A DNA stretch of 64,000 bases, from contig CP134604.1 in the NCBI GenBank assembly GCA_021555105.2, positions 3,572,501 through 3,636,500 of the forward strand, given 5' to 3'. The notes below the pieces were generated by a model that was not told where the DNA came from, made no database searches, and saw only the letters and a program-made list of their open reading frames with translations. The stretch is from Thalassospiraceae bacterium LMO-JJ14 (lineage in GTDB: Bacteria; Pseudomonadota; Alphaproteobacteria; Rhodospirillales; Casp-alpha2). Numbering within the stretch: position 1 is the stretch's first letter; each line of letters begins with the position of its first letter. Position numbers and translations under genes: made by a program. Of this stretch, positions 30,843 to 52,718 are shown piece by piece.

Positions 30843-30851
30843 TCTATCCCC

Positions 30852-32742: not shown

Positions 32743-32743
32743 A

Positions 32744-33940: not shown

Positions 33941-34305
33941 CAGTTCGGTCCTTCGTTCTTGATCTGCCGGGCGAGATAGCGTGCGTCCGAAAAACTCAGC
34001 AGGCCCTCCCACGGCGGCATGGCTTTTTCCGGATTACCAACCAAAATCATGGTGGCAATGCTGTCGATATCCTGATCGGTGAACTGCTCGGGCAGCAGCG
34101 CCGGCCCCAGCCCGCCTTGCAGCGTCATGCCATGGCACGAACCGCAGTCATGTCGCAGCAGATGATCGAGAGAGGCCTTGCGGTCTGCAGATATGGGTTC
34201 GGCATGAAGCGCGGCGGGCGTGGAAACACCAATCCACCCCAGCAGCATCAGGGCACTCAATTTAGCCCAGTTGTGCAACATTGCGCTCAGCCACGGGAGC
34301 CGCAT
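33940..34305 (-). CDS. nirC: NirC, small c-type cytochrome
   Basis: A 121-residue exported monoheme cytochrome with the heme motif CGSCHG and a later MPPWEG that can supply the axial methionine. NirC is thought to donate electrons to NirS or to take part in d1 maturation. The ATG at 34305 is preferred because GGGAGA lies 8 bases upstream; it gives a long signal sequence ending near AALHAEP. A later ATG at 34281 is a possible alternative. The gene overlaps the end of nirE by 44 bases. Confidence 0.85.
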   Translation of the reverse strand: MRLPWLSAMLHNWAKLSALMLLGWIGVSTPAALHAEPISADRKASLDHLLRHDCGSCHGMTLQGGLGPALLPEQFTDQDIDSIATMILVGNPEKAMPPWEGLLSFSDARYLARQIKNEGPN

Positions 34306-35074
34306 TGCATTTATCTCCCACAAGCAGGTCGGCGACATCGACGACGCGGCCGACAACAAACATTAGTGGTGACGGCAGGTTTGCTTCGCTCACACTACTG
34401 GCGATTTCGCCAAGCGTCGATACCAGAGAGCGCTGGCGCGGTGTCGTACCGTGGCTGATCGCCGCTACCGGGGTCGATGCCGGCAATCCTTGCGTCATCA
34501 GACGTACTGAAATCTGGGCCATGTTCGCTGCCCCCATGTAGATCACCAGTGTGGTATCGGGGTCCGCCAGGCCATGCCAGTCGAGATCCAGCTCCATGTC
34601 CTCACGGCAATGACCGGTGACGAATCTGACACCTGTCGATAGGCCCCGATGGGTCAACGGTATTCCAGCGGCGGTGGCACACCCCGATGCTGACGTCACG
34701 CCGGGAACAACTGCATATGTAACGCCACATTTATATAAATGGATCGCTTCTTCACTGCCGCGTCCGAACAAAAACGGGTCGCCGCCTTTCAGACGCACGA
34801 CAAGCCGGTTGCTGCGCGACAGGGAAACCAGCAATTCATTGATTTCATTTTGCGGAATGGGATGGCATTGCGGCTGCTTGCCGACGTTTATGCGTGCAAC
34901 ACCGGCGGGAATCAGCTCGAGAATTTCCGGCGACACCAACCTGTCGTAAACGACGACATCTGCTTTTCTGATAAGGTCATACGCTTTGCGGGTTAAGAGA
35001 TCGGGATCACCCGGCCCCGCGCCGACGAGATAAACTTTTGCATCTTTTTCCTGATCATGATCCGCGCGTAACAT
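34262..35074 (-). CDS. nirE: NirE, uroporphyrinogen-III C-methyltransferase
   Basis: A 270-residue SAM-dependent methyltransferase that makes precorrin-2, the first step from uroporphyrinogen III towards siroheme and heme d1. The motifs are VYLVGAGPGDPDLLTRKA, DVVVYDRLVS, RLKGGDPFLFGRGSEE and VPGVTSASGCATAAGIPLTH. It lacks the CysG dehydrogenase domain. Its place in the nir operon, directly downstream of nirS, identifies it as NirE rather than CobA. The ATG at 35074 follows AAGGAATTCAAG. Confidence 0.92.
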   Translation of the reverse strand: MLRADHDQEKDAKVYLVGAGPGDPDLLTRKAYDLIRKADVVVYDRLVSPEILELIPAGVARINVGKQPQCHPIPQNEINELLVSLSRSNRLVVRLKGGDPFLFGRGSEEAIHLYKCGVTYAVVPGVTSASGCATAAGIPLTHRGLSTGVRFVTGHCREDMELDLDWHGLADPDTTLVIYMGAANMAQISVRLMTQGLPASTPVAAISHGTTPRQRSLVSTLGEIASSVSEANLPSPLMFVVGRVVDVADLLVGDKCNAAPVAERNVAQLG

Positions 35075-35152: not shown

Positions 35153-37015
<1,863 letters not shown>

Positions 37016-37062: not shown

Positions 37063-39132
37063 ATGGCAATATGGAAGAAGCTTAAAACGTTTGCTGCGGC
37101 AGCCCTGGTCACGGGGTGTATCGCGCCTATGGCAAACGCGGACAATCTGGCGGACGTATTTCCGAACGCCGATAAAATCAGTGCTTTCACGGGGCAACCT
37201 CCGGCGGCAACGGCTTTTATCAACGACAAGGCCGCAGGATATATTCTCTCCACAGCGGACGTCATCGGTTCAACCGGATACGGCGGAGAAATCATCGATG
37301 TCCGCGTCGGCGTCAGCACCGATGGCAATATCACCGGCGCCATCCTGCGCCGTCACAATGAACCGATCCTTGTTATCGGCATTTCCGATCAGGATCTGCA
37401 GAGGTTTGTCAGCGGTCTCAAGGGATTCAATGTACTTGCACCTGCATTGACGGGCATTGCAGGCGGCAACACCATGCCCGACGCCATTGCCGGGGCAACG
37501 ATCTCCAGCGCCGTAATTCAGGATGCCGTCGTTCGCGCCGCAAGATCCGTCTTGCGTGCACGTGCACCAGCGGCCAGCGGCTCGATCCTCAAGCGCGAAC
37601 CGTACACCAAGGCCAGTTGGCAGAGTCTTCTTGCCGATGATTCCGTGCAACACCTTGAACTGGATTTCACGGATATTGCCAAAAAGGTTCCGGACCAGAC
37701 CGGTCGCCAAGGTCTTTTTATCGATCTATATGCCGCGCTTCTGACCCCGCCCCGCATCGGTGGGAATTTACTGGGAACCCGCGACCATCAGCAGTTGTTT
37801 TCATCGCTCGGCGCTGGCGACAACGCAATCCTGATTGCCGCCAACGGCGTTTATTCATTTAAAGGACGGCAGTATCGGAAAACCGGCACGTTCGATCGGA
37901 TACAGATCGTTCAAGGCGTCCGCACCTTACAATTGCACCGTGACGCTTATACCAACATCGAAGCCCTGAAGGCCGCGGGCGCGCCGGAACTACGTGAAAT
38001 CGCGCTGTTCGTATTACCCGCAGATACCGGGTTTGATCCGCTACAACCCTGGCGGCTTGAGTTGTTCATCAATCCGGATAAGGCAATGCCGAACGGGGAA
38101 ATGCCGCCCTTCGCCCTTGAATACACCCTCCCGGACAGATACGTCATGCCGGCACCGGCATCGGCCGCCATGGAGCCGGCGGACCGTGACGCAAAGCCAC
38201 TCTGGCAACGCACCTGGGAACAGCGGCGTTTTCGCATTGCCGGCGTCCTTGCTTTACTTGCCGTTCTGACCGGCGTTCTTGTCTTTCAGGATCAACTGGT
38301 TCGCTATCGACGCTTTCGCGATACCGGGCGTCTGGCTTTCCTTGCGGTCGTTCTGGTGTGGCTGGGATGGTATGCCGGCGGGCAATTGTCGGTGCTTCAG
38401 GTTCTGACATTTGCACACGCACTATTGGGCGAATTCCGCTGGGAACACTTCCTTGTCGACCCCATGATCTTCGTTCTTTGGGGATATGTCGCTGTAACGT
38501 TGCTGTTTTGGGGGCGGGGCGTTTACTGCGGCTGGCTCTGTCCTTTCGGTGCCTTGCAGGAACTGATGAATGCGGCAGCCAGGCGCATGGGCGTGCCGCA
38601 ATTGAAAATCCCCTTCGCGGTTCACGAAAGATTGTGGGCGATTAAATACATCATTTTTCTGGGTCTGTTTGCCGCCTCGCTGCACACGATCCGCGAAGCG
38701 ACATTGCTGGCGGAAGTCGAACCCTTCAAGACGGCGATAACGATGACATTCGTCAGAAGCTGGCCTTTCGTCGTTTACGTCGCGGCATTGTTGGCGGCCG
38801 GTTTGTTTATCGAACGGTTTTTCTGCCGCTATCTCTGTCCGCTCGGCGCGGCGCTTGCGATCCCGGCCAGGCTGCGCATGTTCAACTGGCTCAGGCGGCG
38901 CCATCAGTGCGGCAGCGAGTGCCAAATTTGCAGCGAACGCTGCACTGTGCAGGCCATTCACCCAACCGGCGAGATCAACCCCAACGAATGCATCTACTGC
39001 CTCGAATGCCAGACCTATTACGTCGATGACCATATCTGTCCGCCGCTGGTGGCCAGCCGCAAAAAACGCGAACGGCGTCAGGCACTGACGGCCGGACAGG
39101 ACATCAGCGCGGAAAGGCCGGACCATGGCTGA
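37063..39132 (+). CDS. nirI: NirI, NosR/NirI family membrane flavo-iron-sulfur protein
   Basis: A 689-residue membrane protein. The periplasmic N-terminal FMN-binding domain has the flavinylation site GATIS (T146). Several transmembrane helices from about residue 393 follow, with C-x3-CP motifs at C489/C493 and C588/C592. Two ferredoxin-like clusters use C616, C620, C623, C627 and C643, C646, C649, C659. NosR serves N2O reductase and NirI serves nirS expression or activity. Because nirS is divergent and nosZ is absent, NirI is the better name. The ATG at 37063 gives a signal-like N terminus. It overlaps nirX by 8 bases. Confidence 0.88.
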   Translation: MAIWKKLKTFAAAALVTGCIAPMANADNLADVFPNADKISAFTGQPPAATAFINDKAAGYILSTADVIGSTGYGGEIIDVRVGVSTDGNITGAILRRHNEPILVIGISDQDLQRFVSGLKGFNVLAPALTGIAGGNTMPDAIAGATISSAVIQDAVVRAARSVLRARAPAASGSILKREPYTKASWQSLLADDSVQHLELDFTDIAKKVPDQTGRQGLFIDLYAALLTPPRIGGNLLGTRDHQQLFSSLGAGDNAILIAANGVYSFKGRQYRKTGTFDRIQIVQGVRTLQLHRDAYTNIEALKAAGAPELREIALFVLPADTGFDPLQPWRLELFINPDKAMPNGEMPPFALEYTLPDRYVMPAPASAAMEPADRDAKPLWQRTWEQRRFRIAGVLALLAVLTGVLVFQDQLVRYRRFRDTGRLAFLAVVLVWLGWYAGGQLSVLQVLTFAHALLGEFRWEHFLVDPMIFVLWGYVAVTLLFWGRGVYCGWLCPFGALQELMNAAARRMGVPQLKIPFAVHERLWAIKYIIFLGLFAASLHTIREATLLAEVEPFKTAITMTFVRSWPFVVYVAALLAAGLFIERFFCRYLCPLGAALAIPARLRMFNWLRRRHQCGSECQICSERCTVQAIHPTGEINPNECIYCLECQTYYVDDHICPPLVASRKKRERRQALTAGQDISAERPDHG

Positions 39133-40069
39133 ACAGATATCCATATCGCGAAGGCGTGCCCTCACCATCCTCGCGGGCAGCGTTTACGCACTGCTTGGCG
39201 GATCATCGCGACGTGAAGACTTGTATGAATGGCGCGGAACGGCACTGGGCGCTGATGCACGGATTGTTCTCGCGCATGCCGACCGGCAGTTTGCAGACCA
39301 GACGCTTGGCGATGTCTTCCGGGAAATAGAACGGCTGGAGAATATTTTCAGTCTGTTCCGTTCCCGCTCCGCGCTCAGCAAACTGAATCAAACCGGCATG
39401 CTCCGTTCGGCACCGTTGGAACTGATCCACCTGGTGCGTCGCGCTCAGGCGATGGCTGCCATCACGGACGGCGCTTTCGACATTACCGTGCAACCCCTTT
39501 GGGAACTCTATGCCGCACATTTTCGTGCATACCCAGATGACACCGCAGGCCCGTCCATGCATGAGATCGATGCTGTCCGAAGAAGGGTCGGTTCGCACCT
39601 TGTCCGCATCGAAGGAGGCGACATCCACCTCGCGCCCGGAACGCGGCTGACGTTCAACGGTATTGCGCAGGGCTACATCACCGATCGGATCACGGCGTTA
39701 TTGAAATCACGCGGCTGGAACAACGTTCTGATCGACGCCGGAGAGATCAGAGGGCTAGGTATGCATCCCGACGGACGACCCTGGCGCATTGCCATGGCGA
39801 ACGGCATCGAGACCCTGCTCGCGGATTGCGCCATGTCCACTTCGGAGAGCGCCGGCACACGCTTCACGGCATTGGCACCGCAGCATCATTTATTTGATCC
39901 CCGCTCCGGTCTTTGCGCACCCGCCGACACGGCAATCAGCATTACCGCACGTTACGCAACCGATGCAGACGCTTTGTCGACGGCCCTTTTCGTCGCTCCG
40001 TCCGAGATGCATCGAAGAATACTTGCCCGGGTTCCGGGCGCACGCATTGTCACCGCCCGAAAGGTCTGA
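39125..40069 (+). CDS. nirX: NirX/NosX, ApbE-type FAD:protein FMN transferase
   Basis: A 314-residue ApbE-family protein that attaches FMN to the threonine of NirI/NosR. SRRRALTILAGS at the N terminus is a twin-arginine export signal. DGAFDITVQPLWELY and FNGIAQGYITDRITALL are family motifs for FAD binding, and SESAGTRF with HLFDPRSG completes the site. It overlaps nirI by 8 bases and ends 1 base before nnrS, so nirI, nirX and nnrS form one operon, as nirIX does in Paracoccus. Confidence 0.9.
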   Translation: MAEQISISRRRALTILAGSVYALLGGSSRREDLYEWRGTALGADARIVLAHADRQFADQTLGDVFREIERLENIFSLFRSRSALSKLNQTGMLRSAPLELIHLVRRAQAMAAITDGAFDITVQPLWELYAAHFRAYPDDTAGPSMHEIDAVRRRVGSHLVRIEGGDIHLAPGTRLTFNGIAQGYITDRITALLKSRGWNNVLIDAGEIRGLGMHPDGRPWRIAMANGIETLLADCAMSTSESAGTRFTALAPQHHLFDPRSGLCAPADTAISITARYATDADALSTALFVAPSEMHRRILARVPGARIVTARKV

Positions 40070-40070
40070 A

Positions 40071-41270
40071 ATGAAAGCAAAGTTCGACGTCTTCTTCTCA
40101 TATGGTTTCAGGCCGTTCTTTCTGGGCTGCGCAATTTACGGCGCGTTCGTAATGGCAGCCTTCATGATCTGGATCGGCGTGCATCATGCCGGCGGACTCT
40201 TCGTTCGTCTGCCGATGTCCATCTCGCCCTTTCTTTGGCATGCCCATGAAATGCTGTTCGGTTTCGCCATGGCCGCGGTCGCCGGATTTCTGCTCACTGC
40301 GGTGCCAAGCTGGACCGGCACGCATGCCGTTCACGGCAAGCCGCTTTTTATACTGTTCCTGTTTTGGCTGTGCGGACGGATCGGCGTCGGATTTTCCGCT
40401 TCCTTGCCGGTATGGCTTGCGGCAACGATGGATCTCATCTTCATTCCTGCGCTGGGGATTCTTGTCATCGGCGCACTCAGCAAAGGCTGGTCGAAACGGA
40501 ATCTGATCTTCGTCCCGCTGCTGGCCGGTTTTTTCATCTCCAACCTGCTCTTTCATCTTGAACTGTTGGACGTCGTCGACAACGGCATCGATATGGGGCT
40601 CCGCTTGAGTGTGGGCCTGTTGGCTTTACTGATCAGCATTATCGGCGGACGAGTAACCCCCGCTTTCACGACGAACGCGCTACGCCGCATGGGAGAGCAG
40701 AAGCTGCCGGTCAACCATGTGCCGTTGAATGTGCTCGGCATTCTTCTCGTTGCAAGTTTTGCGATTACCGATACCGTCGCACCGGAAGCACAGATAACCG
40801 GGTGGCTGGCCGCAGCAGCGGCAGTTGTGAATGCCGCACGCCTTGCCGGATGGCGCGGCCTGAAGACTTTTTCAGATCCGCTGGTCGCAGTGCTGCATAT
40901 TGGTTTTGCCTGGCTTTCCATCGGTCTTGGCCTGAAAGCCTGGGCCATCCTTGGAGACGGCCTTTCCCCCGAAACAGCCTTGCATGCCCTTACCGCAGGT
41001 GCCGCGGGCACGATGATCCTGGCGGTGATGAGCCGTGCGTCGCTCGGGCACACAGGCCGGCCACTTGTCGCTTCACGGGTAACAGTCGCCGTATATACTC
41101 TGATCACGATGACGACCGTTATCCGCGTCGTCATCCCGCCCGTCTTTCCCGAATTTTATAATGAAGGCATGATCGTTGCCGGTATCGGTTGGATCGCTGC
41201 GTTTACGCTGTTCGCCATCCATTACTGGACGGTCCTGACCGGCCCGCGTCTCGGCGGCAGGGATGCATGA
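40071..41270 (+). CDS. nnrS: NnrS family heme-copper membrane protein
   Basis: A 399-residue polytopic membrane protein of the NnrS family. Family features are the start FFSYGFRPFFLG, FLWHAHEMLFGFAMAAVAGFL, GRVTPAFTTNAL and SRASLGHTGR, which contain conserved histidines. It has about twelve hydrophobic segments. NnrS occurs in denitrifiers, contains heme and copper in Rhodobacter, and protects against nitrosative stress. The ATG at 40071 lies 1 base after the nirX stop. It converges on the Dnr-type regulator with a 6-base gap. Confidence 0.93.
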   Translation: MKAKFDVFFSYGFRPFFLGCAIYGAFVMAAFMIWIGVHHAGGLFVRLPMSISPFLWHAHEMLFGFAMAAVAGFLLTAVPSWTGTHAVHGKPLFILFLFWLCGRIGVGFSASLPVWLAATMDLIFIPALGILVIGALSKGWSKRNLIFVPLLAGFFISNLLFHLELLDVVDNGIDMGLRLSVGLLALLISIIGGRVTPAFTTNALRRMGEQKLPVNHVPLNVLGILLVASFAITDTVAPEAQITGWLAAAAAVVNAARLAGWRGLKTFSDPLVAVLHIGFAWLSIGLGLKAWAILGDGLSPETALHALTAGAAGTMILAVMSRASLGHTGRPLVASRVTVAVYTLITMTTVIRVVIPPVFPEFYNEGMIVAGIGWIAAFTLFAIHYWTVLTGPRLGGRDA

Positions 41271-41276
41271 AACCCC

Positions 41277-41981
41277 TCAGGCGACGGTGCGCTCGAATTC
41301 CTGCTCGTCGACCGGGCAATATTCGCGAAGGCATTGCACATCTTCGACAAACACCTGGTTTGCATCTGTCGTGACGCCATACTCACGGAGCTTGTTCAAA
41401 AGCCGGGACAGACTCTCCGGTTGCACGCCAAGGCGGGCGGCAATCAGGTTTTTGTCATAAGGCAGTGTGATCACGCACGGCCCTTCGGTGGCATGGCAGC
41501 GGCGCAACAGAAATTCCACCAGACGCTGGCTGGCGGAACGAGTCTTCAGCCGCTCGACTTCGTAAACCAAACGATGAAGATGACGAGACATCGACGCCAG
41601 CATATTCATCGCCGTATGCGGATGTTTTTCGACGAGTGCCGCAAATTTTTTCGATTCAATCCCGACAAGGCGTGCGTCTTCGACAACTTCTGCACTTGCC
41701 GGAAAACCGACGCCGATAAACGCGGCCGCTTCAGCAAACATATCGCCCCTGCTGAAGATCCCGAGGATCGCCTGATCGCCGTTCGCTGTGTCGCGATAAA
41801 TTTTCACCCACCCATCAAGAATGACAAAAAAGCATTCCGCAGGATCACCGCGTTGGAACAACACCCGCCCCTTCGGAAAGGTGCGAACATACGCACCCTG
41901 AATAATCATATTGAAAAGTTCATCGTCCAGCCCCGAGAACAGTGGCTGCGCGCGTACAATCCTGATGCTTTCTTCGTCCAT
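41277..41981 (-). CDS. Crp/Fnr family regulator, Dnr/NNR type
   Basis: A 234-residue protein with an N-terminal cyclic-nucleotide-binding-like domain (residues 12-125) and a C-terminal helix-turn-helix. NLIAARLGVQPESLSRLLNK carries E189-x2-S192-R193, the residues that read TTGA-type half sites in FNR relatives. There is no N-terminal cysteine cluster, so it is not an oxygen-sensing FNR. Dnr and NNR respond to NO, probably through heme. The ATG at 41981 is used because the codons before it lack similarity. It lies between nnrS and the NO-reductase operon and is the natural candidate to bind the three FNR/NNR boxes in this window. Confidence 0.88.
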   Translation of the reverse strand: MDEESIRIVRAQPLFSGLDDELFNMIIQGAYVRTFPKGRVLFQRGDPAECFFVILDGWVKIYRDTANGDQAILGIFSRGDMFAEAAAFIGVGFPASAEVVEDARLVGIESKKFAALVEKHPHTAMNMLASMSRHLHRLVYEVERLKTRSASQRLVEFLLRRCHATEGPCVITLPYDKNLIAARLGVQPESLSRLLNKLREYGVTTDANQVFVEDVQCLREYCPVDEQEFERTVA

Positions 41982-42073
41982 GCGACACTCTTGCTGCCAG
42001 GCACCTTGCACCTAGAGCAACCCCCGATAATTAGATGCCTTCCCTCGCGCGAAATAGTATTCCAAAAGTCTGA

Positions 42074-42469
42074 TTAACCCAACAGGCGATGCAGGCGGGC
42101 ATCTTTTGTCTTGAAATGTTCCACGAACCAGTTCTCCAGACGGGGTCCCAACTCATTCGTGATGCCGTCATACCCGCCGGTCGTGTACTGATCCATGATA
42201 TCGCGGATGTCGTCGAGCAGTCTTTCATGATCGTCCTTGTGGATCTGATACTGGTCGTAACCCTGGGACTTCATGATACGTTCTTCCAGCGCGAAATGGC
42301 TGGAAATCCGGGCATAGATTTCGCCAAGGAAAGCCTCAAAGTCGGTGCGGGAGGAATCCCGCTGTAATGCCGCATGGGCGTCATTGATCAGCTTCACAAG
42401 TTCCCTGTGCTCATAATCGACAGCTTCGATTCCCGTGCAGAATTCTTCGCGCCATTCAACCAATGCCAT
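42074..42469 (-). CDS. Bacteriohemerythrin
   Basis: A 131-residue single-domain hemerythrin with a complete diiron site: H21, H58, E62, H77, H81, H118 and D123 (DYEHREL, SHFALEERIM, HKDDHERL, EHFKTKD). It binds O2 and possibly NO reversibly in the cytoplasm. The ATG at 42469 has GGAGGGTAACGTC before it. It is the last gene of the NO-reductase operon, 4 bases after the unknown 175-residue gene. That position points to NO or O2 handling for the reductase. Confidence 0.92.
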   Translation of the reverse strand: MALVEWREEFCTGIEAVDYEHRELVKLINDAHAALQRDSSRTDFEAFLGEIYARISSHFALEERIMKSQGYDQYQIHKDDHERLLDDIRDIMDQYTTGGYDGITNELGPRLENWFVEHFKTKDARLHRLLG

Positions 42470-42473
42470 GACG

Positions 42474-43001
42474 TTACCCTCCGCCGTCGGACATGACGAA
42501 ACCGCCGTTTCCGGGATCAAAATCAATCGCCAGGATCTGTCCGGCCTGCAGTGCAATGGTGCGGTGCGCCTGATAATCCCATCCGTCGCTACGGGTTGTG
42601 TTGCGCAGTTTCAGCAGCACCTCGTGCCGCCCCGCCGGGACGTCGAACTTCTCGTACATATGCGATGGCCCGTCGCCCCGCAGCCCCGACGGCGGCAGGG
42701 ACTGCTGAAAAACGGTCTTGCCGTCCAGTTCAAAGTAGACCACCACGTCGACCCGTTCGCGCGAACACAACTGTGCCTTTCTCATGTTCGCCGCCAACGC
42801 GCCCAGTTCCGCCGCAGTCCGGTCCCGGCAACCGCCCTTGGGCTTGCCGCCGTGCGCGAAACTGAATTTGATCTGCGCTTCTCCTTCGGCGATCGGCAGA
42901 TATGCAGGCGCCTGGGAAAAATAACCGAGTATCAAGGCAAACCCCGCATAGACACAGGCTTGCAGTAAATATCTGATGGGCGCGGCGAATACCTTATTCA
43001 T
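42474..43001 (-). CDS. Membrane-anchored protein of unknown function
   Basis: A 175-residue protein that I do not recognise. Residues 10-30 (YLLQACVYAGFALILGYF) form one membrane anchor or uncleaved signal. The rest, about 140 residues, appears periplasmic, with two cysteines (in GGCRDRT and AQLCSRER) and beta-rich segments such as DVVVYFELDGKTVF and AGRHEVLLKLRNTT. The start overlaps the cytochrome b fusion gene by 4 bases (ATGA), and the hemerythrin gene follows after 4 bases. It is thus firmly inside the NO-reductase operon. It could be an assembly factor or an extra subunit; this is a guess from position only. Confidence 0.75.
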   Translation of the reverse strand: MNKVFAAPIRYLLQACVYAGFALILGYFSQAPAYLPIAEGEAQIKFSFAHGGKPKGGCRDRTAAELGALAANMRKAQLCSRERVDVVVYFELDGKTVFQQSLPPSGLRGDGPSHMYEKFDVPAGRHEVLLKLRNTTRSDGWDYQAHRTIALQAGQILAIDFDPGNGGFVMSDGGG

Positions 43002-44593
43002 GGCCTCACCTCATCTGTGCCGGATACACGGACATTCGAGGCGGCCTCGTCTGCCAGTTCCTGCAGGCCGGAAGAAGCCATTGCTTTGTTCAAGCCCGCC
43101 TGAAATCCGTCAAGGCCGTGCAGCGCGTCTTTCCACTCGGTTGGTGCCATCCACAACCTCAACAATCGTTCCCGCGGCACCCTTTTACGCAAATGCGGAT
43201 CACGTCGCCCCTCGAAGCGGTCTTCGCTCCAGTCCGGTCCAAGACGGTATTGGCACTCGCCGAAACGGCAACCGGCAATCGCCACACCATCGGCCAGCCC
43301 TTTAGAGAGAATGTAATCGATATATGACGGCGGCAGCATACCGACACACGGCAAATCAATCGCCGCGCGGTTCTCTCCTGCCAGTTTCTTGGTCTTGATG
43401 CCGTGTTCGCAACCGATCACCAGCACCCGGTTATCGCCATTCATCTTGGCCGAGGCGGCATGAATTTTGTCACGCAGCGCGGCTGCAGTCAGTTCGGGAA
43501 GATCGATACCCGGCACCAGATCGCTACGGCGGCGAAACGGCATGGCCGTTGGACAGGCCCCAACGCAAATACCGCAACTCACACAGACATCTGCATCGAC
43601 AACGGCCTGCCTGTCGAACGGCAGACCATCGGTACGCGGCATCATCATAATCGCACCGAATGGGCAGTCGCTGGCGCAACGCGTACAACCGTTGCAATTC
43701 CCAAGATCGACAACAGCCGCTGCCAGCTTGCGGCGCGGCGGCAGCCACGGCATCGCCATCAAGGCAAACGTCACACCAAAGGAAATCACCCAAAGCGTTG
43801 CCGCACCCCATTCATCGATCAGCGGAAAGGCAAAGAGATAATACCAGTCGAGGTTCAATACCTGCGGCACACGGTCCAGATCCGCAGGCGCATGACTGAC
43901 CGCCGGGAAGACGAAGGACAAGCCGACCAGCATGGCGAAGGTGCCGACGGACAGACCTCGGGCCGGTTTCCAGCGTGCGTAGGCGACCCTTTGCAGATGG
44001 ATCCACATGACCAGAAGCAGAATCAAGGGCAATGCGATATGCAGAAAAATCAGCAGCGTGAAGAACCTGTCATCAAGACTTTCGTGCTGCATGAAATTCC
44101 TGGCTATCGGCTCGCCGAAGATCGGCAGCCAGTCGAGCCATTCTGCGGATCCGATGGCGATGTATTGTGCCAATTGGTCCCACACCAGCCAGTAGCCGGT
44201 GATGCCTGCCGCGATGACAAGCCATGTCATCGGGACACCGCTGATCCACGAAAAGAAACGCGGGCCGCGGTAGTGATCGAATGCGAATTCGCGGATCATG
44301 TGCAGAACCATCATGATCACAAGGGCATCGGACGCGTATCGGTGTAGCGAGCGCATCACGCCGCCGAGATACCATTGTTCATGCGTCAGTTGCTCCACCG
44401 AATCATAGGCTTCGGTCAGTCCAGTATCGAAAAAGGCATAGACATAAAATCCGGATACGGCGACGATCCAGAAATAGAAAAAGCCCAGACCGCCAAGGGC
44501 ATACATGGGATTCCATTTGACGCCGAAGACCTTGTCGAACCAGCCCTCAAGCCACATGAAGCCCCATCGCAATAATGCCTGGATCTGTTTCAA
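42998..44593 (-). CDS. Cytochrome b - 2[4Fe-4S] ferredoxin - FlpD/MvhD fusion protein
   Basis: A 531-residue fusion. Residues about 30-285 are a cytochrome b6/bc1-type N-terminal domain with four heme-ligand histidines in two 14-residue-spaced pairs (H84/H98 and H185/H199), which should hold two b hemes. Residues 300-347 are a double ferredoxin (C300, C303, C306, C310 and C337, C340, C343, C347). Residues 388-460 match the FlpD/MvhD delta-subunit family, with C395, C416, C442 and C447 for a [2Fe-2S] centre. It probably exchanges electrons between the quinone pool and a soluble or membrane partner. The start is a TTG at 44593 behind GGAAGAG. It sits between sco and the unknown gene in the NO-reductase operon. 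Confidence 0.85.
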   Translation of the reverse strand: MKQIQALLRWGFMWLEGWFDKVFGVKWNPMYALGGLGFFYFWIVAVSGFYVYAFFDTGLTEAYDSVEQLTHEQWYLGGVMRSLHRYASDALVIMMVLHMIREFAFDHYRGPRFFSWISGVPMTWLVIAAGITGYWLVWDQLAQYIAIGSAEWLDWLPIFGEPIARNFMQHESLDDRFFTLLIFLHIALPLILLLVMWIHLQRVAYARWKPARGLSVGTFAMLVGLSFVFPAVSHAPADLDRVPQVLNLDWYYLFAFPLIDEWGAATLWVISFGVTFALMAMPWLPPRRKLAAAVVDLGNCNGCTRCASDCPFGAIMMMPRTDGLPFDRQAVVDADVCVSCGICVGACPTAMPFRRRSDLVPGIDLPELTAAALRDKIHAASAKMNGDNRVLVIGCEHGIKTKKLAGENRAAIDLPCVGMLPPSYIDYILSKGLADGVAIAGCRFGECQYRLGPDWSEDRFEGRRDPHLRKRVPRERLLRLWMAPTEWKDALHGLDGFQAGLNKAMASSGLQELADEAASNVRVSGTDEVRP

Positions 44594-44616: not shown

Positions 44617-45435
44617 TTATGCGTGGCGGGTTGATCTTCGATGCGCCAACCAGGAACGCACCAGAACAACAGCTACGCCGCCCAGACTGAGCGCACCCAA
44701 TGCCGTTGCTATGAAAATCGAGTAATCGAACTTGTACTTGCCGCTTGCCGGGTCATAGAGGGTACAGAATAGCCGGACCCGGTTGATCAGCCCTTCAATG
44801 CTGGTCATTTCAATCCGTCCGCCATATGTCAGCTGCTTCAGCGGCTCGACCAGTAAAGGGGGCTTGAAATCGGCACCGTAAATATGCCGGTACACTTTCC
44901 CGTCCGTATCGATCACTGTTGTTTGCGACAAGTGATCGAAACCCTGAGGGGACGGATTAAAGGAAAACCCCAGATCGCGCGAGAGCGCGTCTATGCTGGC
45001 GGCATCGGCACTCAGAAAATGCCAACCTTTGACATTGATGCCATGTGATGCGGCGTAAGAGCGCATGCGGTTCGGGGAATCGTTACGGGCATCGAAACCG
45101 ATGGTGACGATTTGGAAGCTATCCGCGCCCAATGCGTCGCGGGCAACGCTTACAGCGTCAGCAAGTGCTTCCGATACCATCGGGCATATATCGGCACACC
45201 CCGTATAGACCAGACTGATCACCAGTGGCTTGTCCATGTATTCTTCTAGGGTCACGGGCTGATTACGCGTGTCGGTGAATCGATAGCTGCCGATTATATT
45301 GCCGAGTGATGCTTGCGACGCCTCAAGAGCCTTGGCGCGGTCGAATGAAACGCCCGCATCGGCATGCGTCAGCGAAATCAGGGCTGAACCGAAAGCAACC
45401 GCCAGCCCTGTCAGCAAGGACCTAAAGCGAGGCAA
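44617..45435 (-). CDS. SCO1/SenC family copper chaperone
   Basis: A 272-residue thioredoxin-fold protein with the copper ligands C80-x3-C84 (TGCADICP) and H168 (FDHLSQT). It has an N-terminal signal segment and an extra C-terminal membrane helix (about 237-257). Sco proteins deliver copper to the CuA site of subunit II, which fits the CuA subunit encoded four genes upstream in the same operon. The start is a TTG at 45435 inside the end of ctaB, with GGAGGG upstream. Most Sco proteins have only the N-terminal anchor, so the C-terminal helix is slightly unusual. Confidence 0.9.
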   Translation of the reverse strand: MPRFRSLLTGLAVAFGSALISLTHADAGVSFDRAKALEASQASLGNIIGSYRFTDTRNQPVTLEEYMDKPLVISLVYTGCADICPMVSEALADAVSVARDALGADSFQIVTIGFDARNDSPNRMRSYAASHGINVKGWHFLSADAASIDALSRDLGFSFNPSPQGFDHLSQTTVIDTDGKVYRHIYGADFKPPLLVEPLKQLTYGGRIEMTSIEGLINRVRLFCTLYDPASGKYKFDYSIFIATALGALSLGGVAVVLVRSWLAHRRSTRHA

Positions 45436-46294
45436 TTAGCCCACCCTCCAGCATAGCGCCCACAAGCACGAGAATGAGCTGCGCCAGCGACGCAAAGAAA
45501 GTCTGCATTGCCGTCGCCGGCCGCGGATCGCATACAAAGAGCCAGTTCCTGTACAAGAAGAAACCGCCGCCAAGCATCGCCGGCAGCATATAGACCGGGC
45601 CGTACCCGAAAAGCCCCGGCAACAAGGAGATTGCCACCAGAACAATGGTATGTGCGAAAATCACACGCGCGCCACGGCGCATGCCGAGGACTACGGGCAA
45701 CATCGGAACCCCGGCGGAGGCATAGTCTTTTTCCAGCGCCGCCGCCAAAGACCAGAAATGCGGCGGAGTCCACAGGAACAGGACCATGGCCAGGATCATC
45801 GGCACCGGCCCCGGGATAGGTGCGACGGCAGCCGAACCTGCCAAGACGGCAAAAGTCCCGGACAGCCCGCCGATGACGATGTTCCACGGCGTTCTGCGTT
45901 TCAGCCAGACTGTATAAACGACCCCGTAAAATATGGCCCCCAGGAACAGGTAGAACCCGACAAGCGGATTTAACACCAGACCCGCCACGGTCACCGAGCC
46001 GGCCAGTAGAAGGAGGATACCGAGATACCAGCCCGGGCCGGATTTATAGCGTCCGGTCACAAACGGACGGCGCCGGGTCCGTACCATCTGCGCATCAAGA
46101 TCGGCTTCAATCAGCTGATTGAATGCACCCGCAGCGGCACTGGCGCCGAGCGCCGTCAGGCCGAGGACCGTGATCTGCCAGATCGGCAGACTGATCCCCG
46201 GGGTCACGGCGACACCAGCCATGGCACTCAGCGCAATCGCGAAGCCGATCCTGATCTTGAACAGGCCATACAACTCTTTAACCGTTGCGTGCAT
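45422..46294 (-). CDS. ctaB: Protoheme IX farnesyltransferase (heme O synthase)
   Basis: A 290-residue UbiA-family membrane protein that converts heme b to heme O. The prenyl-diphosphate binding site reads N59-QLI-E63-ADL-D67-AQMVRTRRRP, with E in place of the common first D. The second site region is FLWTPPHFWSLA. The ATG at 46294 is chosen because GGAGG lies 8 bases upstream; an in-frame TTG at 46315 has no such site. Its position between the heme-copper subunit I and sco indicates that the enzyme of this operon uses heme O or A. No ctaA (heme A synthase) is in the window. Confidence 0.93.
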   Translation of the reverse strand: MHATVKELYGLFKIRIGFAIALSAMAGVAVTPGISLPIWQITVLGLTALGASAAAGAFNQLIEADLDAQMVRTRRRPFVTGRYKSGPGWYLGILLLLAGSVTVAGLVLNPLVGFYLFLGAIFYGVVYTVWLKRRTPWNIVIGGLSGTFAVLAGSAAVAPIPGPVPMILAMVLFLWTPPHFWSLAAALEKDYASAGVPMLPVVLGMRRGARVIFAHTIVLVAISLLPGLFGYGPVYMLPAMLGGGFFLYRNWLFVCDPRPATAMQTFFASLAQLILVLVGAMLEGGLIASL

Positions 46295-46321
46295 CGCTAT
46301 GCCCTCCTTGCCCAACCGCCG

Positions 46322-48019
46322 TTAACTGAGCGGCCACACTTCGGACAGGAACTTCCAGTTGATGTAGTAGTAGAGAACGAAGCTGACGAAGAAGACCGAC
46401 ACCAGCGTGATCGTTCCGGGCAGCTTCAATGTCGCCGCGCTGCCATGTGACGCGACAACAGCACCGCCGCCCTGGAACACGACCGGCGACGCCTTGCAGG
46501 CTGCCTCATCGCGCTCTTTGCCGAACAGCACCGAGCCGACGACGATGACAATGTACATGACCCCGCCGACTGTCGCGATGACACCGAAAATCCCGTTCAG
46601 CCCCATCATCAGGAACGCTGATGGCGGATAATCAAAGCTGAGTGCGGCATCAGAGAATGTCATGTCCCAGTGGCGACGCGCCACCCCGAGCGTCCCCGCC
46701 CCCATCATGAACATCGACAGACCAAACGCGCCGATCCCGAACAGGTACGGCTGCCATTTGCACCAACCCTTAAGGATCAACTCGCGACGGAAGATCAGCG
46801 GCACGACCAGATAAGTCACTGCCATGAAGGCAAGGGTCGTACCTGCCGCAACCGTACCATGGAAGTGCCCGGTCACATAGAGCGTGTTGTGCATCAGCAG
46901 GTTCAGCTGCTCGGTCCCCAGCACGACACCGGAAATACCACCGATGAACCCGAACATCACCAACGACAGGAACATCCCGGAAAACGCCGGGTTGCCCCAG
47001 GGTGCATTCCGCAACCACCCGAAGACGCCCTGGGTAAAGCCGTTACGGCGCTGTGCCGCCTCAATCGCGCCCGGCACGCTCATGCCGTGGATCATGCTCG
47101 CCAGTACGGCGAGATAGATCGCATAGGACGTATTGAAGACCTTGAATTCGGAACTGATCCCGGGATCCGTCAACAGATGGTGCGCCGAGGCGATCGGCAG
47201 GAACGCGATATAGAGCAAAAATGCGCCCCGGCTGACCTTTTCACTCAGCGGCTTGGAGCCGATGGTCAGCGCCGCAATGGCGTACCAGATGGAGACGTGT
47301 GCCGCGACATTCATTTGTTGCGACGAATGGCCTAACCCCCACCAGACGAGCCTGTAGGTGAGAGAGTCGATATCCCCGATCAGCCCCAGCGACCACAGGA
47401 ACGTCGGCACCAGAATGATGGCCCCGGATGCGATCGTATAGACCGCGATGATCGCCGCCGCGACGGCGCCGAAGGTAACCAGCGGGATCGATCCCTCATA
47501 GGTCTTTTCCTGCTGGGCAACGACCAATGTGCCGAAGAACACGAACACCGCGATCAGCGCACCGACCGCAAACAGGATCAGCCCTAGATAAAAATGCGGT
47601 GCCGCTTTCATAGGCACGTACGAAGTGAACATAACGCTGGACTCGCCTTGCAGCACGGCGACATTGGCCATCAATGCGCCGACCAGCATGAGAACGAATG
47701 CCGCCCAGGCAAATCTAGGCGTTGCCAGGCGGCAATTCAGAAGGATCGCCGAGGCAAAATATAGAATCGCAACCTCGAAGAAAATGACCCAGAACACCAG
47801 AATGTCGGCGCCGTGCCCGGTCAATGCCAGATAGAAAAGATCGGCCGGCAGAATGTGTATCGCCGGCCAGCGCGTCAGCGCCACCAGCAAACCGAACAGC
47901 CCGCCGATCGCCAAAAACACGATTGCCACAACGGCGTTCGCCTTGATCAGCAGTTCCGCATCCCGGCAAACCTTAAGACCGGTCTCCGGACAAACCCTGT
48001 GCGCGAATGTCATAGCCAT
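46322..48019 (-). CDS. Heme-copper oxidoreductase subunit I lacking the active-site tyrosine (probable eNOR-type NO reductase)
   Basis: A 565-residue membrane protein with about 14 helices. Low-spin heme ligands are H69 (LTGHGADILVFW) and H387. The high-spin heme ligand is H385 (HNTLYVTGHFHGTVAAG), and the CuB ligands are H231, H280 and H281. Oxygen reductases of types A and B have H-P-x-V-Y after the first CuB histidine; here the sequence is GHSSQQMN, so Q235 stands where the cross-linked tyrosine should be. Loss of this tyrosine is a hallmark of NO reductases derived from oxidases. cNOR/qNOR glutamates and their overall sequence are not present. The CuA subunit, the nirS context and the absence of norCB favour an eNOR-like NO reductase. 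The ATG at 48019 follows GGAGGGGGCGGAC. Confidence 0.8.
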   Translation of the reverse strand: MAMTFAHRVCPETGLKVCRDAELLIKANAVVAIVFLAIGGLFGLLVALTRWPAIHILPADLFYLALTGHGADILVFWVIFFEVAILYFASAILLNCRLATPRFAWAAFVLMLVGALMANVAVLQGESSVMFTSYVPMKAAPHFYLGLILFAVGALIAVFVFFGTLVVAQQEKTYEGSIPLVTFGAVAAAIIAVYTIASGAIILVPTFLWSLGLIGDIDSLTYRLVWWGLGHSSQQMNVAAHVSIWYAIAALTIGSKPLSEKVSRGAFLLYIAFLPIASAHHLLTDPGISSEFKVFNTSYAIYLAVLASMIHGMSVPGAIEAAQRRNGFTQGVFGWLRNAPWGNPAFSGMFLSLVMFGFIGGISGVVLGTEQLNLLMHNTLYVTGHFHGTVAAGTTLAFMAVTYLVVPLIFRRELILKGWCKWQPYLFGIGAFGLSMFMMGAGTLGVARRHWDMTFSDAALSFDYPPSAFLMMGLNGIFGVIATVGGVMYIVIVVGSVLFGKERDEAACKASPVVFQGGGAVVASHGSAATLKLPGTITLVSVFFVSFVLYYYINWKFLSEVWPLS

Positions 48020-48031
48020 GTCCGCCCCCTC

Positions 48032-48571
48032 CTACTCGGTCACGTAGATGCGGCCGACCATCTGATGATGGCCGATCCCGCAAAATTCATTGCATACGAC
48101 GCTGTAGACACCTGCTTCGTTCGGCGTCACCGTCAGCACCATTTCGTAATTCGGATGAACCTGAATGTTGATGTTGGCGGGCTGCAGCGAGAACCCGTGC
48201 AGCCAGTCCAGCGAACTGAGATGCAGGCGGTAACTTTCGCCCTTTTTCAGTTCAAGCACCGGCCACCATTCCCAAAGCCGTGCCAGCATGTAGACATCAC
48301 TTCCGGCGGGCGGTCGAACCACCGGAATGCCGGTGTCGCCTTCCTCGCGGACCGTATATTCGTCGGCGAACGCCTCGACCTTGGCCGCATATACTTCGGG
48401 TTTGATGCGGTAAGCTTCGTTTGAAAGGTTCTGCTGTCCCTCGATGTGCCAGAATACCATCGTGAAGAACATCACCAGCCCCCAAACGAAGGCGACGGAA
48501 ATCCATGTGATCTCCATCTTCGCCAGAGGTTCTTTCCACCAGAGTTTATCCTCGGGAGGTGTAATTGCCAT
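48032..48571 (-). CDS. CuA-containing subunit II of the heme-copper NO reductase
   Basis: A 179-residue protein with one N-terminal membrane helix (about 20-42) and a cupredoxin domain on the periplasmic side. The CuA ligands are complete: H125 (WLHGFSL) and C160-N-E162-F-C164-G-I-G-H168-H-Q-M171. It takes electrons from a soluble cytochrome c, for which the divergent cytochrome at 48952 is the obvious donor. It is shorter than aa3 subunit II and resembles the ba3-type single-helix form. The ATG at 48571 has AAAGGGGGACAGGGAC upstream. It is followed 12 bases later by subunit I. Confidence 0.92.
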   Translation of the reverse strand: MAITPPEDKLWWKEPLAKMEITWISVAFVWGLVMFFTMVFWHIEGQQNLSNEAYRIKPEVYAAKVEAFADEYTVREEGDTGIPVVRPPAGSDVYMLARLWEWWPVLELKKGESYRLHLSSLDWLHGFSLQPANINIQVHPNYEMVLTVTPNEAGVYSVVCNEFCGIGHHQMVGRIYVTE

Positions 48572-48585
48572 GTCCCTGTCCCCCT

Positions 48586-48771
48586 TTAATTCGCAACGGG
48601 GATTGCGGCAATTTCCATAATCCCCCAGATCGTATAAAAGACGGCGGGCACCGCGACGCCGATGAATAAAAGAAGAAACGGATTGTCCAGAATGCTCTGC
48701 ATTGCCGGTATGCGCTGGCCTTCAGTATCCTCGCCATCCGGTCCGGGCGTTTGGTTCTCGGATTCGTTCAT
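48586..48771 (-). CDS. Small single-helix membrane subunit of the NO reductase
   Basis: A 61-residue protein with a charged, proline-rich N terminus (NESENQTPGPDGEDTEG) and one membrane helix at about residues 31-54 (PFLLLFIGVAVPAVFYTIWG). A strong ribosome binding site (GGGGAGATGAGCCA) precedes the ATG. It is the first gene of the operon, 14 bases before the CuA subunit, and resembles the subunit IIa helix of ba3 oxidases in size and position. It is short, and its role is inferred from context. Confidence 0.75.
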   Translation of the reverse strand: MNESENQTPGPDGEDTEGQRIPAMQSILDNPFLLLFIGVAVPAVFYTIWGIMEIAAIPVAN

Positions 48772-48832
48772 TGGCTCATCTCCCCTGCGACTGCCACTCG
48801 GGCAATAGGATCACGAAGAGCGAAGCACATCC

Positions 48833-48846
48833 TTAACCTAAGTTAA
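48833..48846. promoter_or_regulatory. FNR/NNR-type palindrome between the NO reductase operon and cytochrome c
   Basis: TTAACCTAAGTTAA, two perfect TTAAC/GTTAA arms with a 4-base spacer. Its centre is 48839.5. For the cytochrome c gene a class II start would be near 48881, with TATTGA at 48871-48876 near the -10 position. For the minus strand the start would be near 48798, with CTATTG near 48803-48808. One site could therefore drive both directions. Confidence 0.65.
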
Positions 48847-48951
48847 GGACGCCAAACCTGATCCACGGTCTATTGAGATCAGAGGCGTAGCCACTGTCGT
48901 TGCGCCAGGCATGCAAATCGGTTTTTTGATTCAGGGGTTGGAGACGCTGTC

Positions 48952-49335
48952 ATGAATAGGATACTTCGCAACACCACGGCGCTTAGTCTGCTGGGACTGG
49001 CATTTACCGTCGTGCCTTCGCAGGGCATGGCGGCTGATGGCGCCAAGGTCTTTAACAAGTGCAAGGCATGCCACACGCTCGAAGCTGGCAAACACAAGGT
49101 CGGCCCGTCACTGGCCGGTGTCGTCGGGCGCAAGGCCGGAACCGCCGAAGGATTCACGAAGTACAAGGGGTTGAAGGGTGCGGATTGGGTCTGGACCGAA
49201 GAAGAACTGATGGCATACCTCGAGAACCCGACGTCATACACCAAAGCCAAGAGCGGCGAGCGGTCTTCTATGTCTCTTAAATTGAAAAAGGAAGATCAAC
49301 GCAAAGCGGTCATCGAGTTTCTGAAAGGCCATTGA
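48952..49335 (+). CDS. Class I cytochrome c (c2/c550-like)
   Basis: A 127-residue exported monoheme cytochrome. A signal peptide (to about PSQGMAA) is followed by C37-K-A-C40-H41. GPSLAGVVGRKAGTAEGF is typical of the cytochrome c2/mitochondrial type, and M107 in SSMSLKLKKE is the axial methionine. The ATG at 48952 follows GGAGACGCTGTC. It diverges from the NO-reductase operon with a shared FNR/NNR box, so it is probably the electron carrier for the CuA subunit and for NirS. Confidence 0.92.
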   Translation: MNRILRNTTALSLLGLAFTVVPSQGMAADGAKVFNKCKACHTLEAGKHKVGPSLAGVVGRKAGTAEGFTKYKGLKGADWVWTEEELMAYLENPTSYTKAKSGERSSMSLKLKKEDQRKAVIEFLKGH

Positions 49336-49781: not shown

Positions 49782-52718
49782 TTGATATATTACAGCCAGC
49801 GTGTTTCGCTGAAACATATCGAGGGTATTTTAATCAAAAAGACGCTTCTGCACTTTCTTTTGGTCGTGATTTCCGCCCTGTCGCTGACGACGATAGAAGC
49901 AACGGCTTCTGAAACACTTCCCGAAACAAAAAAAATCATCGCGGTATTTCCCAGAGATTTCCACCCTTATTTCCAGATGAACGAAGACGGCCAGCCATCC
50001 GGCTTCGCAATTGATGTCCTGAATGCAGTCGCGGCGCGTGCAGGCCTGGAAGTAAGCTATAATGCCAAGAGTTCTTGGTCTGAGGCCGTTGCAGACTTAC
50101 AAGACAAGCGGGCTCACGTCATTCCAAACATGGGCATCAGCCAAGAGCGAAAGGCTATCATGTCTTTCACTTCGCCCGTCGACACATTAATTGTTTCCGG
50201 GTTTGTTCTGAAAAATTCCAATGCCATTGTGAGAATCGACGATATTTCCGGACATACGGTTGGTGTGGTCGAAACCAATATCGCGGCGACCCTGATGAAG
50301 GATCGGAATGATATCAATTTAATAGTATACAAAGACTTTTCCGACGCTTTGCTTGGACTTCTTGTTCGGAATATCGATGTCTTCTTTTATCCAGAAACAC
50401 CTGTTTGGGCCACGGCTACGCAGGGTAAATTTGATCACCAAATTCGGGATATTGGACCGCCACTAAAACGTATTGAACGGGCAATCGCCGTCCGCAGCGA
50501 CCTCCCAGGCGTGCGCGGCATTCTCGACCGGGAACTGCGCGCTTTTCAGGCAACCGATGAATTTGAGGAACTGTACAGGAAATGGCACGGCCTAAAACCG
50601 GGTTCCGGTATTTTCCATTTTGCCCCTTGGTGGGCTGCAGTATCTGTCGCGACAGCTCTATTGCTCGGCAGCTACATGTTTGCCCGCTTGAGACGCCCCG
50701 GAACATTTAGAATATCTGAACGAACGGTCGAAGATATTCGTTCAGAGAATTCCTTACGAGAAAGGATTATCTGGCTGATCACTGTTATCACTGTCGTTAC
50801 GCTGGTCATCACCGGCACAGCGATCTGGGCTCTTTACACGACAGCATTTGACGAAGAAAAAGGTCGGTTGCTGGAAACAGCAAGGAGCCAGGCCGAACTT
50901 ATCGAGAGCGTCGCCATATTTAACGATCAGTTCAACTCTGACTATCCGGGCGGAAGTGACGCAGCAACAATCGCAGCAATTCGTGAAGGCTTCAGTCCTG
51001 CCTCAGGGACAACAGAAACAACTCTCGCCCGAAGAAATGGTGACCAAATTGTCTTCCTCTTTAGGCAACTGGCTTCGCGGAGTTTTGATCTGGCACAGGT
51101 TCCTCTCAACTCAAAGCGCGCAGAACCCATGCAAAGGGCGCTTTCCGGAATGACCGGGACAGTTGTCGGCCGGGATTACCGCAACGAACTTGTGCTTGCC
51201 GCGTATACACCGGTTCCTTATCTCGATCTCGGCATCGTCGTAAAAAGGGGTCTCAGTGAAATTCGAGAACCTTTCTTTCAGGCCATCTCATTTGCCGCTT
51301 TGGTCGCGGTGTTTGTTATTGCGGCAGGCGTGTTTCTGTTTGTCCGGTTATCCAATCCAATCCTTTCCCGAGCCTTGGAGAACGAGGCAAAACTCAGAAA
51401 AGTCCTCGATACGTCACCGATTCCTTTGACGATCAGTGACTATTCGACGGGTGAATTCCTGTATACCAATCCGGCAGCGGAAGAGTTGTTCGGGGCAACA
51501 TCCGACGGCCTCATCGGCCATACGACAAAAGATTACTATGCCAAAATTTCTGACAGGGAACGTGTTTTCAAAACAATGGATAGGGATGGCGCAGTCAGAA
51601 ATATGGAAGCCATCGCAGCCAGGAACGATGGGGTGAATTTCTGGGTTAACATTGATGCCCGCCAGATCATGTTCGAGGGTCGGAAAGCCGTTGTTGCTGG
51701 CATTGCCAATATCGATGAACGCAAGAAAGCCGAACATGCATTAAGGGAGAGCGAATCTCGTTTCAGGGATTTTGCGAAATCAGCTGCCGACAGTTTTTGG
51801 GAGACGGATGAAGAAAACAGGTTCACATATGTATCCTCGTCGATTGAAGGCATGAAGATCGACCCGGAGCGCGACATGTACGGACGCCGTCGCGAAGAAA
51901 TCAAAGGGCTTCAATATTCGCAAGAATCTTTGCAACGTTTGTATAAGATTTTATCCAGTCACAAACCCTACAGGGATTTTGAATGCCAGTTAATCTTCGA
52001 GACCGATGGCATCGAGCACTATATCCGCGATAGCGGCACCCCCATTTTCGATACGGATAAAAAGTTCAAAGGTTACCGCGGCACCCTCACAGACATAACC
52101 GAGCACAAGACCTTTGTGGCAAAGTTACAGGAAGCCTCACTTGGTCTTATCAATGCTATAGCAGTTACGATCGAAAAGCGCGATCCATACACCACCGGGC
52201 ATCAAAACAGAGTCGCTCATCTCGCCGTGGGCATCGCCAAGGAATTAAACTGGAACGAATCCCAAATATTGGGCCTTCGTCTCGGAGCGTTGGTACACGA
52301 TATTGGAAAAATTTCCATACCGGCAGAAATACTGAGTCGTCCCGGGAAGTTGAACGATGCAGAGTACCAACTAATCAAAACCCACCCTCAAACGGGATAC
52401 GATATTCTCAAAAATCATCAGTTTCCCTGGCCGATTGCCGAAATGGTTATTCAACATCATGAGCGAATAGATGGATCCGGCTATCCAAGAGGGCTAACCG
52501 CTGATCAGATTCTCCCCGAAGCAAAAGTCATAGGCGTCGCCGACGTCGTCGAAGCTATTTCTTCGCATCGACCCTACCGTGCGGCACTCGGCATCGAGGC
52601 AGGCATAGAAGAAATTACACGAGGCAAAGGTACAGCTTATGACCCCGATATTGTTGATGCGTGTATCAAATTGATTGTAAAAGGCGAATTCGATTGGAAT
52701 AAAACGGACGATACATAG
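49782..52718 (+). CDS. Periplasmic-sensor, PAS and HD-GYP domain protein (probable c-di-GMP phosphodiesterase)
   Basis: A 978-residue membrane receptor. After a signal segment (LHFLLVVISALSL), residues about 48-275 are an SBP_bac_3 amino-acid-binding-like domain (PRDFHPYFQMNEDGQPSGFA). A membrane helix at about 285-303 is followed by another near 331-354. A CACHE-like periplasmic loop leads to a helix near 495-520. Two PAS domains (about 535-650 and 660-780) precede the HD-GYP output domain (about 789-978: LVHDIGK and HHERIDGSGYP). It should hydrolyse c-di-GMP in response to a ligand. The start is uncertain: TTG at 49782 has no clear ribosome binding site. The gene is AT-richer than its neighbours and may be acquired. 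Confidence 0.85.
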   Translation: MIYYSQRVSLKHIEGILIKKTLLHFLLVVISALSLTTIEATASETLPETKKIIAVFPRDFHPYFQMNEDGQPSGFAIDVLNAVAARAGLEVSYNAKSSWSEAVADLQDKRAHVIPNMGISQERKAIMSFTSPVDTLIVSGFVLKNSNAIVRIDDISGHTVGVVETNIAATLMKDRNDINLIVYKDFSDALLGLLVRNIDVFFYPETPVWATATQGKFDHQIRDIGPPLKRIERAIAVRSDLPGVRGILDRELRAFQATDEFEELYRKWHGLKPGSGIFHFAPWWAAVSVATALLLGSYMFARLRRPGTFRISERTVEDIRSENSLRERIIWLITVITVVTLVITGTAIWALYTTAFDEEKGRLLETARSQAELIESVAIFNDQFNSDYPGGSDAATIAAIREGFSPASGTTETTLARRNGDQIVFLFRQLASRSFDLAQVPLNSKRAEPMQRALSGMTGTVVGRDYRNELVLAAYTPVPYLDLGIVVKRGLSEIREPFFQAISFAALVAVFVIAAGVFLFVRLSNPILSRALENEAKLRKVLDTSPIPLTISDYSTGEFLYTNPAAEELFGATSDGLIGHTTKDYYAKISDRERVFKTMDRDGAVRNMEAIAARNDGVNFWVNIDARQIMFEGRKAVVAGIANIDERKKAEHALRESESRFRDFAKSAADSFWETDEENRFTYVSSSIEGMKIDPERDMYGRRREEIKGLQYSQESLQRLYKILSSHKPYRDFECQLIFETDGIEHYIRDSGTPIFDTDKKFKGYRGTLTDITEHKTFVAKLQEASLGLINAIAVTIEKRDPYTTGHQNRVAHLAVGIAKELNWNESQILGLRLGALVHDIGKISIPAEILSRPGKLNDAEYQLIKTHPQTGYDILKNHQFPWPIAEMVIQHHERIDGSGYPRGLTADQILPEAKVIGVADVVEAISSHRPYRAALGIEAGIEEITRGKGTAYDPDIVDACIKLIVKGEFDWNKTDDT

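Follow-up and report, generated by a model that had tools for sequence, protein, structure and literature searches.

The window, by which we mean the entire stretch of 64,000 nucleotides that was analyzed, contains an operon on the minus strand encoding, in this order, a small subunit, subunit II, and subunit I of a heme-copper enzyme, followed by a heme O synthase, an SCO protein, a cytochrome b-2[4Fe-4S]-FlpD fusion, an orphan protein, and a hemerythrin. The first gene (48586-48771) is an intact open reading frame for 61 amino acids with one hydrophobic helix and the motif DNPF-LLL...Y-IWG. Subunit II, a cupredoxin protein of 179 amino acids with a CuA site (48032-48571), is encoded beside subunit I (46322-48019; 565 amino acids), which very probably belongs to the eNOR family; both reading frames are intact.

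All six histidines that serve as heme and CuB ligands are present in subunit I (H69, H231, H280, H281, H385, and H387). Its closest solved relative is the ba3 oxidase of Thermus thermophilus (phmmer E value of about 6e-41; identity, ~26%). In the alignment of the two proteins, H69 corresponds to H72, H231 to H233, H280/H281 to H282/H283, H385 to H384, and H387 to H386. The CuB helix (helix VI) reads GHSSQQ, placing Q235 on Y237, the cross-linked tyrosine of ba3. Four further differences from ba3 are V236 to Q234, W239 to N237, Y244 to V242, and T312 to H311. An earlier note on this DNA had claimed both the complete set of metal-ligand histidines and a glutamine at the position of the cross-linked tyrosine, and the ba3 alignment confirms the two claims. 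The COX1 family model matched subunit I with 203.5 bits; the match to the CtaD/CoxA model was weak (50.5 bits; cut-off, 670.75).

Relatives were drawn from 61 close genomes, 398 genomes of the phylum, and a collection of species-representative genomes, the scan of which returned at least 557 relatives among the 589 candidate stretches listed. Position 235 is a glutamine in 131/131 aligned sequences, whereas 18/18 B-family oxidases have a tyrosine there. The motif H-x2-Q-Q-x-N was present in 129/129 loci, which argues that the glutamine is no sequencing accident. Other invariant residues specific to the Gln clade are Q234, N237, H311 (T312 in ba3), E82, Y270, and Y299. No compensating tyrosine was found at the two known cross-link positions, a check suggested by the earlier note: the cross-linked helix VI tyrosine of B-family O2 reductases (ba3) is replaced by Gln235, and the tyrosine that C-family O2 reductases (cbb3) carry in helix VII, six residues ahead of the His-His pair, is replaced by Leu274. 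The leucine is conserved in the alignments, and the cbb3 oxidase of the same genome has a tyrosine at this position. Tyr270, located one turn deeper than the cbb3-type position, and Tyr299 are tyrosines specific to the Gln clade.

The predicted fold of subunit I, modeled with a moderate mean pLDDT of 76.7 and low values at residues 366 to 384, near the heme ligands, resembled A- and B-family subunits I with Z scores of 36 to 38 (ba3 oxidases, about 37). The Gln-type enzyme on Thermus thermophilus plasmid pTthSNM6-6b (locus L145, 7986-9671) reads GHFK, with lysine in place of H387, and may therefore have undergone a His-to-Lys change of the low-spin heme ligand. In relatives, loci L058, L059, and L060 encode another set of altered heme-copper-like proteins: helix VI reads HNMHY, the HH pair has become YH, and GHFH is replaced by GYFH or GAFH.

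The best solved relative of subunit II is subunit II of Thermus thermophilus ba3 (E value, 2.4e-15; the reference sequence is identical to 1ehk_B). As the earlier note had stated, its CuA site is complete, with ligands H125, C160, E162, C164, H168, and M171 in the motif C-x3-C-x3-H-x2-M; these residues are at least 97% conserved among 79 orthologues and the window protein. The small subunit, likewise described in that note as a 61-residue single-helix protein at the start of the operon, is encoded near subunit II in 77/80 related loci and in all 42 full loci, defined as related loci longer than 16 kb. Genes for subunit II of B-family oxidases are also preceded by small single-helix genes; with ba3 itself the window enzyme has the fold, the six histidines, and the CuA domain in common. 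In one relative (G054, contig C224, 12326-14627), a CuA-type subunit was encoded beside heme d1 genes, and no subunit I of the eNOR family was found.

The lining of the K-channel in Thermus ba3 comprises E15 of subunit II together with Y244, Y248, S309, and T312. E20 and W23 of the window's subunit II align with E15 and W18 of ba3 subunit II, and three lining residues are shared with B-family oxidases, namely, Glu20 of subunit II (E15), Y246 (Y248), and S308 (S309). The positions of Y237, Y244, and T312 are changed: T312 is replaced by H311, and Y244 by valine or isoleucine in the Gln clade. What our analysis adds is this conservation of Glu20(II), Tyr246, and Ser308 of the ba3 channel together with the replacement of Thr312 by histidine. 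The entrance of the B-family K-channel, marked by E20/W23 of subunit II, and part of the channel itself therefore appear to be retained in the eNOR-type enzyme despite the three changes.

Downstream of subunit I, the minus-strand genes continue with a heme O synthase (CyoE/CtaB; 45422-46315), scoring 254.9 bits and above cut-off with TIGR01473 and present in 34/42 full loci. The SCO1/SenC copper chaperone that follows (44617-45435; PF02630) was found in 42/42 full loci, with conserved C80-x3-C84 and H168. Equally constant (42/42) is the cytochrome b-2[4Fe-4S]-FlpD/MvhD-like fusion (42998-44593), which contains heme histidines H84, H98, H185, and H199, eight cysteines for two [4Fe-4S] clusters, and four more in the FlpD/MvhD-like domain. 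The four heme-ligand histidines and the twelve cysteines are kept in 67 sequences. The adjoining orphan gene (42474-43001), also present in 42/42 full loci and in each case a neighbor of the fusion gene, encodes a conserved protein of 175 amino acids without an NCBIfam or Pfam match. This protein has one N-terminal helix followed by a predicted periplasmic beta-sandwich (model pLDDT, 95), with C57, C78, R73, R80, and D109 conserved in the alignment. A fold search with the model gave weak beta-sandwich matches, the best of which was human HGSNAT (Z score, 9.7; 4% identity), from which we draw no function. A bacteriohemerythrin (42074-42556; TIGR02481), with a possible role in O2 or NO handling, is found in 39/42 full loci. 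The analysis therefore also adds near-universal partners of the enzyme: the heme O synthase, SCO, the cytochrome b-[4Fe-4S]-FlpD fusion, the orphan periplasmic protein, and the hemerythrin. We would suggest, only tentatively and as a rather unlikely reading, that eNOR of Pseudomonadota is a larger respiratory module in which the fusion and the orphan protein are functional partners, acting in assembly or as a dedicated quinol/iron-sulfur electron route, such that electron supply would differ from that of a simple cytochrome c-fed enzyme.

Other neighbors are less constant. At the end of the cluster, still on the minus strand, lies the gene of a Crp/Fnr-family (FtrB-like) protein (41277-42011), a candidate regulator encoded near the operon in 13/42 full loci. 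The divergent gene on the plus strand (48952-49335) encodes a soluble, cytochrome c-550-like protein (PF00034), a candidate electron donor that has a relative near the operon in 12/80 loci. A large sensor with solute-binding, PAS, and HD-type domains (49782-52718) adjoins the operon and is rarely conserved there.

About 60 to 75 bp upstream of the first gene, the perfect palindrome CTTAAC-TTAG-GTTAAG (48832-48847) resembles a variant FNR/DNR box. CTTAAC-N4-GTTAAG was spotted by reading the sequence, and it was tested genome-wide and across relatives only afterwards: it occurs once in the whole 3.89-Mb genome, at the eNOR operon, and is common to the nearest relatives. TTGA-N6-TCAA was found upstream of the first gene in 52/76 related loci, compared with about 2.6 expected, and a relaxed palindrome in 103/126 upstream regions, compared with about 5 expected, the 126 regions including a few loci that represent the same genome from two sources. 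A search of the window for the strict FNR box TTGAT-N4-ATCAA gave no match at the operon and no excess over chance, and the result of a sigma-70 promoter scan was below chance level. The operon is probably expressed under the control of a Crp/Fnr-type, DNR-like regulator, and the unique variant of the palindrome suggests a regulator of shifted specificity in this genus. DNR is an NO-responsive regulator (PMC1274295). Induction of the operon by NO would be in keeping with this, the FNR/DNR-type box being the evidence that points to it.

On the far side of the regulator gene from the operon, the window contains nirS, heme d1 genes, and genes for a NosR/NirI-like protein, ApbE, and NnrS. The cytochrome cd1 nitrite reductase NirS (35153-36937; minus strand), the putative source of NO, was recognized by PF02239 (511 bits) and a cytochrome c domain. 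The accessory genes on the same strand (28079-35074) are nirN-like, nirJ, nirDL/ahb-type siroheme decarboxylase genes, nirF, and cobA/nirE, whereas the NosR/NirI-like protein, the ApbE FMN transferase, and NnrS are encoded on the plus strand (37063-41270). In 12/42 full loci, nirS was located within 8 kb. Among the 61 relatives, 22 had both the nir cluster and the enzyme, 7 only the nir cluster, 6 only the enzyme, and 26 neither (counted from tables), a co-occurrence with a Fisher P value of 9e-6, uncorrected for shared ancestry.

The genome is a single contig of 3.89 Mb, 99% complete. The COX1 family scan identified only an aa3 oxidase, a cbb3 oxidase, the window enzyme, and one degenerate COX1-like protein. 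The latter (L004, 1393-2796; about 1281236-1282534 of the genome) adjoins the aa3 operon and has no His-His pair for CuB; proteins like it are found widely across the order. A query with P. aeruginosa NorB (identical to 3o0r_B) had no match anywhere in the genome, the window enzyme included, and the same query matched five other genomes of the order with E values below 1e-150. Together with the COX1 scan, this leaves the genome without a detected cNOR or qNOR, so the earlier note's description of a nirS cluster lacking norCB extends to the whole genome. The window enzyme is the genome's only recognized NO reductase of the heme-copper superfamily, and it is encoded beside NirS. NarG and NapA gave no match above cut-off in the genome. 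NosZ (TIGR04244) was not found in it either, the only match being the CuA domain of the window's subunit II; relatives were positive in the same search.

In a maximum-likelihood tree, the Gln sequences formed one group (support, 99/99), apart from the B-family oxidases (99/87). The diagnostic columns 229 to 238 were left out when this tree was built, and very long outgroup branches make its root unsure. The Gln clade is related to, but outside, the B-family O2 reductases, and it takes in plasmid copies from Thermus thermophilus and Thermomicrobium roseum with ~48% identity. Haloarchaeal, Deinococcus, Geobacillus, Methylobacterium, and betaproteobacterial plasmid homologues were considered as eNOR candidates and rejected as tyrosine-bearing B-family oxidases.

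Proteins of this kind are known already. An alphaproteobacterial "ba3-a1" enzyme without the catalytic tyrosine has been described (PMC6431628); once NO reductase activity was reported, it was given the name eNOR instead (PMC8879329). eNOR is reported to have been characterized biochemically, and it is described, like sNOR, gNOR, bNOR, and nNOR, as related to the B family (PMC11388526). The residue at the tyrosine position is glutamine in eNOR, asparagine in sNOR and CuANOR, aspartate in gNOR, and glutamate in cNOR and qNOR, and eNOR is predicted to have one proton channel (PMC8756737, Table A4). The earlier note had stated correctly that eNOR carries the glutamine. The metagenome-assembled genome BS150m-G9 is named as using ba3-a1/eNOR for its NO reductase (PMC8879329), and the copy in this genome (L078), presumably the very gene meant there, is 73% identical to that of the window. 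With the published enzymes (PMC8879329, PMC6431628, and PMC8756737) the window enzyme shares the glutamine, the CuA subunit II, SCO in the operon, a cd1 nitrite reductase in the genome, and an alphaproteobacterial host. No difference was found that would exclude it from the family; the window genome appears to be without NosZ and a dissimilatory nitrate reductase.

It should be noted that eNOR membership was assigned by the published diagnostic residue, the tree, and identity to the BS150m-G9 copy, and that the other NO reductase families were compared by their published residue descriptions. On these grounds, we are highly confident that the window enzyme is a further eNOR, i.e., a CuA-bearing, B-family-derived heme-copper NO reductase that would complete the path from nitrite to N2O beside the cytochrome cd1 nitrite reductase. 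The earlier note's proposal of a probable eNOR-type enzyme performing the NO-to-N2O step is thus supported by the Gln clade, the genome inventory, and the published eNOR.

It is extremely improbable that the enzyme belongs to another oxidase-derived family (sNOR, gNOR, bNOR, or nNOR). All of these are described as related to the B family (PMC11388526), those of the bNOR/CuANOR type from Bacillus, sNOR, and gNOR share a cupredoxin-type subunit II with the window enzyme, and our tree was built without verified reference sequences of the four families. However, asparagine (sNOR and CuANOR/bNOR) or aspartate (gNOR) is diagnostic for such enzymes and glutamine marks eNOR (PMC8756737, Table A4), in agreement with Gln235 and with the 73% identical copy in the genome said to use eNOR. 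cNOR (NorBC) presumably catalyzes the same reaction, and its polar H-x3-E in helix VI is akin to H-x3-Q; the window enzyme differs in not being a NorB-family protein, in having a CuA subunit in place of the cytochrome c subunit NorC, and in its clade.

A microaerobic B-family O2 reductase able to function in the absence of the cross-linked tyrosine, or an enzyme that reduces both O2 and NO, is also conceivable given the B-family ancestry and fold (Z score of about 37 to ba3 oxidases), the annotation of relatives as oxidases in databases, and an organism that is equipped for O2 (aa3 and cbb3). We regard this as very unlikely, however, as the tyrosine is lost in 131/131 sequences along with other active-site changes, the Gln clade lies outside the O2 reductases, one A-type and one C-type oxidase are already encoded in the genome, and the operon is linked to nir. 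More weight is due to the possibility that the enzyme is an eNOR by family but serves in NO detoxification, forming with NirS a nitrite/NO protection module that does not support growth; we consider this a lesser but real possibility. The pathway would run only from nitrite to N2O, given that neither NarG nor NapA reached cut-off in the genome and that NosZ was not found there; among the neighbors, NnrS and hemerythrin are of a stress type, and the six relatives with the enzyme but no detectable nir cluster make such a role possible. On the other hand, the full heme d1 pathway with NirS, the entry of electrons through CuA, and a conserved predicted proton-uptake path suggest respiratory use.

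For an eNOR that respires NO, the following mechanism can be proposed. NirS would release NO in the periplasm, and electrons would pass from a cytochrome c to CuA of subunit II, then to the low-spin heme (H69/H387), and on to the high-spin heme-CuB center (H385; H231, H280, and H281), where two NO would be reduced to N2O. An active site from which the redox-active tyrosine is absent would be suited to this two-electron reduction, with Gln235 placed where cNOR holds glutamate (H-x3-E). Protons would probably be taken up from the cytoplasm via a modified K-channel comprising Glu20(II), Tyr246, Ser308, and His311; turnover should consequently be electrogenic and may involve proton pumping. The remaining genes of the operon would supply heme O (or a heme A precursor), copper, and accessory electron transfer.

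Ecologically, the finding likely means nitrite reduction that ends at N2O, a greenhouse gas for which no NosZ was found in the window genome. Since eNORs are annotated as cytochrome oxidases, NO reduction and the release of N2O go unnoticed in genomes like this one. The conserved operon partners provide concrete new targets. Because the channel entrance appears to be kept while the tyrosine is gone, eNOR would also be a natural system for testing whether heme-copper enzymes require the active-site tyrosine to take up and pump protons.
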